A stretch of DNA of 55,032 nt from Candidatus Omnitrophota bacterium. GTDB taxonomy: Bacteria > Ratteibacteria > UBA8468 > B48-G9 > DTJG01. The notes under the pieces are model-generated. The model saw only the letters and a program-made list of their open reading frames with translations. It did no database searches and was not told the origin of the DNA. Of this stretch, positions 154-3,581 are shown one piece after another. A program made the position numbers and the translations under genes. The DNA lies in NCBI GenBank assembly GCA_023484085.1, contig JAMDAS010000019.1, positions 1-55,032 on the forward strand. The letters run 5' to 3'. Every line of letters starts with the position of its first letter. Positions within the stretch are counted from its first letter, which is position 1.

Positions 154-180
154 GTTTGACATGTTTTTATATGCTATAAT
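154..180 (+). promoter_or_regulatory. Putative promoter for the riboswitch transcript (extended -10 TGcTATAAT at 172-180)
   Basis: TATAAT with upstream TG, just 5' of the riboswitch. A TTGACA-like -35 is present but badly spaced. Confidence 0.45.
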
Positions 181-199
181 AAAAAAATAATTAAGGAAA

Positions 200-390
200 G
201 ATTGCAGATACTTTTAAAGAGTTTAATAGGGAAGACTGTGCAAAGCAGTCACGCTCCCGGCGCTGTAAGGGTTACAAAGGTCTTACCATTAAAGGGAAAG
301 AGCCACTGCTTATAAGCGGGAAGGCTGACCTGAGGATAAAACCCGAGTCAGAAGACCTGTCTGCAAAAGGATTCTCTGCGGAGTTCAGGG
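200..390 (+). ncRNA. Cobalamin (B12) riboswitch
   Basis: Core AATAGGGAAgactGTGCAAagcagtcACGCtCCCGGCGCTGTAA and a B12 box AGTCAGAAGACCTGTC at about 346-361 match the cobalamin riboswitch consensus. Confidence 0.9.
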
Positions 391-422
391 AAATATATAT
401 GGGTTAAGAAAAAAGGGTGCAG

Positions 423-450
423 CCCACCGGAAGGTGGGTTTTTTATTTTA
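423..450 (+). terminator. Intrinsic terminator as riboswitch expression platform
   Basis: CCCACC-GGAA-GGTGGG stem-loop followed by TTTTTTATTTT, between the B12 aptamer and the first ORF. Confidence 0.8.
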
Positions 451-469
451 ATAGGAGGGGGTGATACAG

Positions 470-562
470 GTGAAGAAAAAGGTTATCGCCAGCAGAAAAT
501 CATGCAAGGCAAAAGGAACAGGTCTATCTCATTATATTTTAGTTGATAAAAAAAATAAGTAA
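470..562 (+). CDS. cbpA: 30-aa RiPP precursor-like peptide (CbpA-like), MKKKVIASRKSCKAKGTGLSHYILVDKKNK
   Basis: GTG start 10 nt after an AGGAGGGGG Shine-Dalgarno, stop at 560-562. It lies between a B12 riboswitch/terminator and a radical SAM/SPASM gene. Below the ORF-track size cutoff. Confidence 0.75.
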   Translation: MKKKVIASRKSCKAKGTGLSHYILVDKKNK

Positions 563-566
563 TAAC

Positions 567-608
567 ATAATCAGGGACAGGACCTATTTCCGTCCTGTCC
601 CTGATTAT
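567..608 (+). repeat. 16-bp perfect inverted repeat (hairpin) between peptide gene and radical SAM gene
   Basis: ATAATCAGGGACAGGA (567-582) and TCCTGTCCCTGATTAT (593-608), 10-nt loop. Confidence 0.9.
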
Positions 609-622
609 TTATCGGGGGTAAA

Positions 623-2038
623 ATGGTAAATTTAAACAAGACAGATAAAAAAGAATGTGCGTCATCAAGGGGTGTTTTTTTTAATACGGGTAAAGGCTTC
701 CATCTCCAGATTTTAGACGTAAAACATCCTGACTACGTTGCAGTGGTAGACCCTGATACTGCTTTCTGGGCCCTTATTGAAAAAAAAAACATTGCGGAAA
801 ACATAGATGAAAACAGTCAACTTTTAAAGAAATACAGGGAAAAGTCTGAAAAATTCTCCTCTGAAATGGAAGATCTTCGTTTTAATCTTGCTCTTTCCGC
901 AGTATATTTCAATCCCACTGAAAGATGTAATCTTAACTGTAATTATTGTTATATACCGGAATCCTTCCGTAAAAATGGCAGGGATATGTCAAAAACAGAG
1001 ATATTCAATGCACTGGATATTTTAAAAAACCACTTCAATAAAACTCTTCCCAAAGGAAGACTTCCACAGATTGTCTTTCATGGTTCAGAGCCTATGCTTA
1101 ACAGGGAATCCATCTTTGAAGCAATGGATAAGTTTAAAAATGATTTTGCTTTTGGAATCCAGACCAATGGAACGCTTTTGGACGATGAGTCCATAAAGTT
1201 TCTGTCTTCTAAAAACATAAGCATCGGATTATCCCTTGACGGGCATATAAGTAAAATTGCAGATATGACAAGAAAAAACTGGGCCCAAAAGGGCGTTTCA
1301 GAAAAAGTCGTGGAAGTAATAAAAAAATTAAAAGGGTATCATAACTATAGCGTTATCTGCACGGTAACAAACAATAACATGGCTTATCTCACGGACATAG
1401 TTGAGTTTTTTCATAATTTAGAGATCCCCTACTGCATGCTTAACCCTGTCCGCTGTACTATGCCCGGCTCAAGAAAAATAAAGCCAAAGGACCATGAATT
1501 TTCAAAATATTATCTTTCTGCCCTTGACAGAACACACCAGTTATACAAAGAAACAGGAAGAAAAATAGTGGTTGCCAATTTTGCAAACGTTCTTATGAGT
1601 ATTCTTGCTCCGAGTGGCAGAAGACTGATGTGTGACATATCCCCTTGTGGCGGCGGAAGATGTTTTTTTGCAATTTCTGCCAAAGGAGATGCCTTCCCAT
1701 GCAGTGAATTTATCGGACTGGAAGAATTCTGTGGCGGAAACATATTTAAAAATAGCATTGAAGATATTATTAAAACCAGACCGTTCATGATGGTAAAAGA
1801 AAGAAAGGTTGAGAACATTGACCCATGTTTTAGATGTGCAATAAGGCACTTCTGCGGGGCGCCATGTCCTGCTGAAGCCCATGAAATGAATGGAGATATA
1901 GAAACGACAGGGGCTTTCTGTGAACTGTATGAAGAACAGGTCAGATATGCTTTCCGTTTAATCGCAGATGGCAAAGAAGATGCATACCTGTGGGATAACT
2001 GGGATTCGGATATGATCAGTTCTTTTGAACAAAAGTAA
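623..2038 (+). CDS. cbpB: Peptide-modifying radical SAM/SPASM enzyme (CbpB-like)
   Basis: CNLNCNYC radical SAM motif; C-terminal SPASM-type cysteines (CDISPCGGGRC...CSEF...CFRCAIRHFCGAPCPAE...C). Adjacent to short peptide ORF and B12 riboswitch. Confidence 0.85.
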   Translation: MVNLNKTDKKECASSRGVFFNTGKGFHLQILDVKHPDYVAVVDPDTAFWALIEKKNIAENIDENSQLLKKYREKSEKFSSEMEDLRFNLALSAVYFNPTERCNLNCNYCYIPESFRKNGRDMSKTEIFNALDILKNHFNKTLPKGRLPQIVFHGSEPMLNRESIFEAMDKFKNDFAFGIQTNGTLLDDESIKFLSSKNISIGLSLDGHISKIADMTRKNWAQKGVSEKVVEVIKKLKGYHNYSVICTVTNNNMAYLTDIVEFFHNLEIPYCMLNPVRCTMPGSRKIKPKDHEFSKYYLSALDRTHQLYKETGRKIVVANFANVLMSILAPSGRRLMCDISPCGGGRCFFAISAKGDAFPCSEFIGLEEFCGGNIFKNSIEDIIKTRPFMMVKERKVENIDPCFRCAIRHFCGAPCPAEAHEMNGDIETTGAFCELYEEQVRYAFRLIADGKEDAYLWDNWDSDMISSFEQK

Positions 2039-2045
2039 ATTTTCC

Positions 2046-3062
2046 ATGGATATAATCACAATAGGAATAAACCATAAAACTGCAGAAATAAAAGAAAGGG
2101 AGAGATTCTTTCTTACAAAAGAAAAACTGAAACAATTTCTCACCGGATTATACGAGATAAATCCTGTAAGCGGGGTGGTTATTCTTTCAACGTGCAACAG
2201 GATGGAAATATACGTTCATATGGATTATGATTTTGAAACAGGAAAAGAAAAAATCAAGGAATTCATATATGACAATTTCAGATGTGATGAACGTATTTTC
2301 AACAAATATTTTTATATGTTTGAAAACATAGATGCAATAAAACATTTGTTCCGGGTTTCTTCAGGCATAGATTCCCAGATTCTCGGGGAAACAGAAATAT
2401 TGGGGCAGGTGAAGGATGCCTTTTTAATTGCCAATGAAATGGAGACAATGGATACTTTTATTGAGGAGCTTTTCAGTAAAGCCATTTATACAGGTAAAAT
2501 GGCAAGAAGTAAAACAAACATCTCCAGGGGAAATATTTCCGTGGCAGGCATTGCCATAAAAAAATGTGAGGATTTTTGGGGCTCTCTGGAAAAAAAGGAA
2601 TGTCTTATAATAGGAGCAGGTAACGTTGCCTCTCTTTTAAGCAAATACCTGAAAGGAAAAAATATGAAGGGGATTTTTGTATCAAACAGGACGTTTGAAA
2701 AGGCAAAAGAGCTTGCATATTTTTGTAATGGTATTGCAATAAGATTTGATAGTATTGATGAAAAATTAAAAAACGTGGACATTGTTATCAGCTCCACGTC
2801 AAGCCCCCACGTTATCCTGAAAAAAGATAAAATTATGGAGATTATGAAAGAAAGGAAAAAACCTCTTTTGATTCTGGATTTATCCGTTCCCCGTGATGTA
2901 GACCCGTCAGTTAAAGAAATCAATGACGTTTACCTGAATGACCTTGATAACCTGAAATCTGTCGTGGAGGAAAATTACAAGAAAAGAAGGAAAGAGGCGG
3001 AAAAAGTTGAAAAAATAATTGAAAACGAGATTAAAAAATTTGCAGTAGTTGAAATATCTTAG
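2046..3062 (+). CDS. hemA: Glutamyl-tRNA reductase (lacks most of the C-terminal dimerisation domain)
   Basis: GINHKTA, STCNRMEIY, GETEILGQVKDAF and GAGN motifs. The protein ends at about residue 338. Confidence 0.9.
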   Translation: MDIITIGINHKTAEIKERERFFLTKEKLKQFLTGLYEINPVSGVVILSTCNRMEIYVHMDYDFETGKEKIKEFIYDNFRCDERIFNKYFYMFENIDAIKHLFRVSSGIDSQILGETEILGQVKDAFLIANEMETMDTFIEELFSKAIYTGKMARSKTNISRGNISVAGIAIKKCEDFWGSLEKKECLIIGAGNVASLLSKYLKGKNMKGIFVSNRTFEKAKELAYFCNGIAIRFDSIDEKLKNVDIVISSTSSPHVILKKDKIMEIMKERKKPLLILDLSVPRDVDPSVKEINDVYLNDLDNLKSVVEENYKKRRKEAEKVEKIIENEIKKFAVVEIS

Positions 3063-3147
3063 ATAAGTCTGCCCCTATCATGGCACTAAAAAATCCCGGA
3101 TATAATTACTAGATTTTTTTATTTCATTTTTATGGTATTATATCTAT

Positions 3148-3316
3148 AGCCTATCCCGTTTGTGTAAAGCGATAATTCTTGAGCCAACACCTATAATAAG
3201 GGAGTCAACGCCGTCTTAGGAACGTCATCTGGAAACAGATAACAAACTTATCCGGGACGACCCCCACTTATTCAAAGGGCCTCAAAGAATTCGTTTTTTA
3301 CGGCGGGATGGGTTAT
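3148..3316 (+). ncRNA. ssrS: 6S RNA (RNA polymerase-binding)
   Basis: Closing stem CCTATCCCG (3150-3158) / CGGGATGGG (3304-3312), CTTGAGCCAACACC, and a long imperfect hairpin returning through GGGCCTCAAAGAATTCG; -10-like TATTAT just upstream. Confidence 0.7.
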
Positions 3317-3322
3317 TTCTTA

Positions 3323-3405
3323 GGGTAGGTTGCCGAGAGGACAATGGCAGCAGACTGTAAATCTGCCGGCTCACGCCTTCGGAGGTTCGAATCCTCCCCT
3401 GCCCA
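3323..3405 (+). tRNA. tRNA-Tyr (GTA)
   Basis: Cloverleaf with long variable arm, anticodon loop actGTAaat, acceptor GGGTAGG/CCTGCCC, T-arm GGAGGttcgaatCCTCC. Confidence 0.93.
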
Positions 3406-3581
3406 ATAATTTTGGCTTCCTTGAAGGGAGGATTTGAATAGAGCGAAGTAAGAAATTGTGAGCGGGCGCAACAATTTCAGCGAATGGCCGACCCCGAGTG
3501 TAGTGGGAACGAGGGGCGCCGAATCCTCCCCTGCCCAATAATTTTAGCTTCCTTGAAGGGAGGATTTGAATAGAGCGAAGT
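3388..3581 (+). repeat. 132-bp-period tandem duplication covering the tRNA-Tyr 3' end and downstream T-arm-antisense repeat element
   Basis: 3388-3449 recurs at 3520-3581 with one mismatch (CGAATCCTCCCCTGCCCAATAATTTT[g/a]GCTTCC...GAGCGAAGT). Confidence 0.9.

Follow-up and report, generated by a model that had tools for sequence, protein, structure and literature searches.

A cobalamin riboswitch-linked CbpA/CbpB cassette in a Candidatus Omnitrophota bacterium and its possible role in cobamide synthesis

What is the function of a 30-residue peptide and a radical SAM enzyme that are encoded together behind a cobalamin riboswitch? The question is raised by the beginning of the window, by which we mean the whole 55,032-nucleotide stretch of Candidatus Omnitrophota DNA that was analyzed (contig JAMDAS010000019.1). 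The window starts in the tail of an unrelated open reading frame and continues with the following features.

172 to 180, forward strand: extended -10 promoter element TGCTATAAT, the probable promoter of the unit by direct reading
189 to 378, forward strand: cobalamin riboswitch aptamer (RF00174, 102.4 bits, E 1.4e-24)
374 to 390, forward strand: putative P13 hairpin CTCTG-CGGAGTT-CAGGG, from direct reading
400 to 426, forward strand: putative antiterminator, TGGGTT (400-405) with AGCCCA (421-426), from direct reading
421 to 440, forward strand: intrinsic terminator of the expression platform, AGCCCACC-GGAA-GGTGGGTT plus a T run (8 pairs, terminator scan)
470 to 562, forward strand: cbpA, GTG start, 30-residue precursor MKKKVIASRKSCKAKGTGLSHYILVDKKNK (TIGR04164; start set by locus L002, core seen in 61 loci)
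567 to 608, forward strand: hairpin with a perfect 17-bp stem between cbpA and cbpB (hairpin scan)
623 to 2038, forward strand: cbpB, radical SAM/SPASM peptide maturase of 471 residues, from ATG at 623 to the stop at 2038 (TIGR04163; Radical_SAM and SPASM domains)
2046 to 3062, forward strand: hemA, glutamyl-tRNA reductase (TIGR01035, 356 bits, cut-off 209.55)

Identity of the cassette

The cassette is almost certainly CbpA/CbpB. The peptide exceeds the cut-off of the NCBIfam model TIGR04164 (55.6 bits, E 2.5e-15; cut-off 35) and the enzyme that of TIGR04163 (694.2 bits, E 5.7e-209; cut-off 375), which places both in a family that is already known computationally; the cassette is therefore not a new family. 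A first-pass annotation of this DNA had proposed a riboswitch, a terminator, a 30-residue open reading frame, and a SPASM radical SAM enzyme of the CbpA/CbpB kind, and all of these elements are present (RF00174, terminator scan, TIGR04164, and TIGR04163), with the two curated models bearing out the family name. As elsewhere in the family, the peptide gene adjoins the enzyme gene directly upstream and a cobalamin riboswitch lies further upstream, an arrangement that recurs in relatives, whereas in the window the cassette is followed by hemA. A literature search on CbpA/CbpB found no paper on the function of this cassette. What is new here is the evidence from cob/cbi operons, a CbpA core defined over 61 loci, the hairpin between cbpA and cbpB, and the linkage to hemA; the first-pass annotation contained neither hemA nor the hairpin, nor the riboswitch-led cbi operon that lies elsewhere in the genome.

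The best structural match of CbpB is CteB, the SCIFF thioether maturase (PDB 5WGG and 5WHY; TIGR03974), which aligns over nearly the whole length of CbpB (E 4.5e-19) and has the same radical SAM core, SPASM domain, and conserved cluster cysteines. Against the SCIFF maturase model, CbpB scores 125.9 bits versus a cut-off of 425, and CbpA has one cysteine, whereas the SCIFF peptide has six within 45 residues. The closest other NCBIfam model is that of the PapB-type ranthipeptide maturases (NF047865), where CbpB reaches 152.6 bits versus a cut-off of 340; PapA is built on repeated Cys-x3-Asp motifs, which CbpA lacks. Anaerobic sulfatase maturases (TIGR03942; PDB 4K36-4K39) also have the radical SAM and SPASM fold. 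The first-pass annotation had named a grouping with these enzymes as grounds for abandoning its proposal, and no such grouping is seen, with 126.2 bits in TIGR03942 (cut-off 349.45) versus 694 bits in the CbpB model; in addition, the window encodes a dedicated 30-residue substrate and has no sulfatase nearby.

Enzyme and precursor peptide

In an alignment of 24 CbpB homologs with 52 to 77% identity, the cysteines of the CxxxCxxC motif (C102, C106, and C109) and seven SPASM cysteines (C342, C360, C402, C405, C411, C415, and C433) are invariant. An AlphaFold model of CbpB (mean pLDDT of 80, with low confidence over the first 25 residues and some of the SPASM region) is nearest to the two CteB structures 5WHY and 5WGG, followed by sulfatase maturases, ChlB, and TigE. 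Residues 38 to 87, a set of N-terminal strands and helices, could form a precursor-recognition domain, judging from the secondary structure and from the full-length alignment with CteB.

The start of cbpA was placed at the GTG at position 470 because a relative in the genus (L002/L021) has an ATG at exactly the equivalent place. An alternative GTG at position 461 would add 3 residues, and the program-made list of open reading frames gives this 33-residue form. CbpA could be read beside cbpB in 61 loci, including the window, so that the peptide accompanies essentially every enzyme, the co-conservation for which the first-pass annotation had called. When these peptides are aligned on the cysteine, the motif C-x3-G-x-G-L-S-H is invariant: Cys at position 0, Gly at +4 and +6, Leu at +7, Ser at +8, and His at +9 are each found in 61/61. 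Its flanks are nearly as constant, with Arg at -3 and Lys or Arg at -2 in 60/60 and Tyr or Phe at +10 in 61/61; neighboring positions vary among the 61 loci. The core had no homology to solved proteins at E values up to 10. Bacteriocins and signal peptides are usually far less conserved, and by its sequence the CbpA core appears unlike a fast-evolving antimicrobial or signal.

Riboswitch and expression platform

The aptamer upstream of cbpA passes the RF00174 covariance model well above its gathering score of 31.5 bits. The GGAG in the loop of the putative P13 hairpin (380-383) could pair with CTCC in L5 (254-257), and an L5-L13 kissing loop has been described for the cobalamin riboswitch class (PMC9600662). 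Further downstream, TGGGTT can pair with AGCCCA, which would put it in competition with the terminator's 5' arm. An equivalent pairing made of other bases (TGGGT/ACCCA) is present in the genus relative L002. Of 38 riboswitches of this class that functioned in a reporter study, 37 carried a predicted intrinsic terminator (PMC9600662).

By sequence, the arrangement of riboswitch and terminator has the layout of a transcriptional off-switch, from which it would follow that the unit is expressed when cobalamin is scarce, as the first-pass annotation had proposed. Given this layout and the known behavior of the class, a shortage of adenosylcobalamin or a related cobamide would turn cbpAB on, since RNA polymerase could read through the terminator (421-440) behind an unliganded riboswitch.

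The intergenic hairpin and hemA

The hairpin at 567-608 has a stem of 17 bp, compared with a maximum of 10 bp in shuffled sequences. Stems of 11 to 18 bp, unrelated in sequence, are found at the corresponding position in eleven further loci (L021, L022, L023, L026, L027, L028, L059, L069, L072, L073, and L081), where a T run is mostly absent; loci with very short gaps between the two genes have no such hairpin. It is possible that the element acts in mRNA processing or partial termination, and its role may be to keep peptide mRNA in excess of enzyme mRNA.

The hemA gene begins 7 nt after cbpB and probably belongs to the riboswitch-controlled unit as its third gene, with cotranscription suggested by this position. 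The encoded HemA is short (338 residues), and Pfam matches its N-terminal and NAD-binding domains but not the C-terminal dimerization domain; HemA seems to be short in the genus relative L021 as well. In L021, a gene for a CobD/HisC-like aminotransferase lies 3' of the cassette. Beyond hemA, the window has a 6S RNA (RF00013) followed directly by a tRNA gene (together 3145-3405, the tRNA gene at 3323-3405), after which a near-identical stretch of about 50 bases occurs twice (3398-3449 and 3530-3581), as in a partial duplication.

The genome from which the window comes is 62.6% complete. It contains a second cobalamin riboswitch that heads an operon encoding CbiX, CbiC, a NiCoT-type permease, CbiD, CbiE, and CbiL, of which CbiE and CbiL were called by sequence inspection and similarity and the rest by family models. 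At its N terminus, the CbiX of this operon (L088 1927-2574, on contig C18) bears a fused Cys-rich zf-like domain (PF04071).

Spread and genomic neighborhood of relatives

A single scan of 85,488 species genomes yielded 63 relative loci. By the labels of their metagenome-assembled genomes (MAGs), which may err, they come from Chloroflexi, Verrucomicrobia, Planctomycetota, Deltaproteobacteria, Nitrospirae, Nitrospinales, Firmicutes, Acidobacteria, Alphaproteobacteria/Magnetococcales, Elusimicrobia, and Armatimonadetes, among others. In a covariance-model search of 44 loci, 35 had a riboswitch immediately ahead of cbpA and in its orientation, and another 3 (L022, L026, and L027) had one at the head of a B12 operon containing cbpAB. 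The 6 loci in which this search found no riboswitch (L024, L038, L057, L073, L075, and L080) are on cut contigs or begin inside an operon. In L043 (9219-9643) and L050 (7871-8299), the stretch that separates a cob operon from cbpAB carries two cobalamin riboswitches, set back to back with one on each strand.

Most cassettes stand alone, so that linkage to cob/cbi genes concerns a minority of loci; at least 14 lie in or beside cob/cbi operons. The cassette is inside such an operon in nine cases (L022, L024, L026, L027, L038, L039, L073, L075, and L080), runs divergently to a cob operon in three (L043, L045, and L050), where each strand has its own riboswitch, and has cobT after it in two (L035 and L049). 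Cobalt-transporter or cobaltochelatase genes directly adjoin cbpAB in six loci (L022, L026, L027, L038, L039, and L080). L026, L027, and L038 share the order cob genes, cbiC, cbpA, cbpB, (cbiX), cbiM, cbiQ, cbiO, cbiD, cbiE, cbiL, and further genes; L022 has cbiM, cbiQ, cbiO, cbpA, cbpB, cbiX, cbiD; and in L075 the cassette sits between cbiD and cbiE. CbiM, CbiQ, and CbiO were confirmed by NCBIfam models, while the CbiX calls are matches below the cut-off to related chelatase models. An ancestral gene order is common to several of the linked loci, in Verrucomicrobia/Planctomycetota, a point that, like the predominance of stand-alone cassettes, counts against the role proposed below.

The cobT gene, which acts in lower-ligand activation, raises the possibility that the peptide or a derivative supplies the lower ligand of a cobamide, with the ring drawn from His or Tyr. 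This reading draws on the position of cobT after cbpB in L035 and L049 and on the cobT/cobU/cobS genes that L043, L045, and L050 have in their divergent operons. We consider it very improbable, because BluB, which makes dimethylbenzimidazole, is encoded in 24/24 of the CbpB-positive genomes of the contrast family described below and because the neighbors in other lineages are cobalt genes.

Clustering of 756 neighboring open reading frames returned only cob/cbi genes as widely recurrent. ABC ATPases recurred in 12 loci as a mix of CbiO and unrelated transporters. Inspection of the neighborhoods revealed no exporter, protease, or partner common to the 63 loci, and the mature peptide is for this reason probably kept in the cell. 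These neighborhoods bear on whether the product is instead an exported antimicrobial, a signal, or a secreted cobalt scavenger. Transporter-type open reading frames, HlyD-like and/or ABC ATPase-like by sequence inspection, do lie downstream in four Desulfovibrionales loci (L062, L065, L067, and L074), but with no transporter or protease shared across the family and a core that is near-invariant across many phyla, export is quite unlikely. The suggestion in the first-pass annotation that the peptide might be a signal finds no support, as no conserved exporter, peptidase, or receptor was seen among the neighbors. In L062, L065, and L067 the HlyD-like gene is directly downstream of cbpB and encodes a possible exporter of that lineage only.

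Co-occurrence with cobamide genes

CbiC is encoded in 41 of 52 CbpB-positive genomes, many of which are incomplete MAGs, and CobN in 10 of the 52. Since CbpB-positive genomes include both carriers of CobN and genomes without it, no single chelatase is an obligate partner of CbpB. For contrast, we used an alphaproteobacterial family around genome G101 with 55 genomes, 24 CbpB positive and 31 CbpB negative. Within this family, by p values that ignore phylogeny, CbpB showed no significant association with CbiD (p = 0.45), CbiM (p = 0.09), CobN (p = 0.50), or BluB (p = 0.12), which argues that CbpB is accessory there and dispensable for cobamide synthesis. NrdJ is nearly universal in the family. 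The cassette thus occurs mainly in cobamide makers and is not tied to one chelatase or transporter.

The same comparison bears on a B12-sparing role, in which the product would support a B12-independent substitute pathway derepressed through the riboswitch at low B12. Riboswitch control does imply expression at cobamide limitation. Such a role is nevertheless improbable: MetE is rare in the 55-genome family and does not track CbpB (3/24 CbpB-positive versus 1/31 CbpB-negative genomes, p = 0.31), CbpB-positive genomes belong mostly to de novo producers, and cbpAB is found in synthesis operons rather than beside B12-independent isozymes.

Proposed role

Taken as a whole, the best explanation is that CbpA/CbpB makes a modified peptide that is induced at low B12, stays inside the cell, and serves cobamide synthesis, possibly as a cobalt ligand; we give this a probability of about 0.4. 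That the cassette has a role in the cobamide/cobalt regulon is, taken separately, likely. CbpB would modify the invariant core R-K-x-C-x3-G-x-G-L-S-H-Y, and the simplest modification would be a thioether centered on the lone cysteine, or another crosslink at this residue. The retained product would then act in cobamide synthesis, and in the window the riboswitch-controlled unit would also raise tetrapyrrole supply through hemA.

For the product itself, a cobalt ligand is a tentative lead in which metal binding is speculative. Its most likely role would be that of a ligand or chaperone for cobalt or a cobalt-corrin intermediate, improving cobalt use. The linkage to cbi/cob operons and the invariant Cys and His lend indirect support to this reading, which the first-pass annotation had raised as a cobalt or corrinoid ligand. 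Its fullest form, a ribosomally made ligand or chaperone that is induced by cobamide shortage and passes cobalt, or a cobalt-corrin intermediate, on to the B12 pathway, is doubtful. The mature peptide might instead be a small intracellular redox or catalytic cofactor like PQQ or mycofactocin, used by one cobamide-synthesis enzyme or B12-linked reaction, rather than a metal ligand. A short core with strongly conserved Cys, His, and Tyr would suit such a cofactor, as would the lack of exporter or bacteriocin-type genes at the loci and the placement of the cassette inside complete cob/cbi operons; no conserved partner enzyme stands beside the cassette, however, and the known genes of the pathway are already present in the linked operons, leaving no obvious gap to fill, so that we regard a cofactor as rather unlikely.

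The wide spread of CbpA/CbpB, its near-invariant core, and its place in cobamide/cobalt operons make it a part of B12 physiology that can be put to the test. Should the peptide prove to carry cobalt or to serve a B12 step, it would be a new kind of component in a pathway regarded as essentially complete, and a cobalt-carrying CbpA product would be the first carrier of this metal for B12 synthesis to derive from a peptide.
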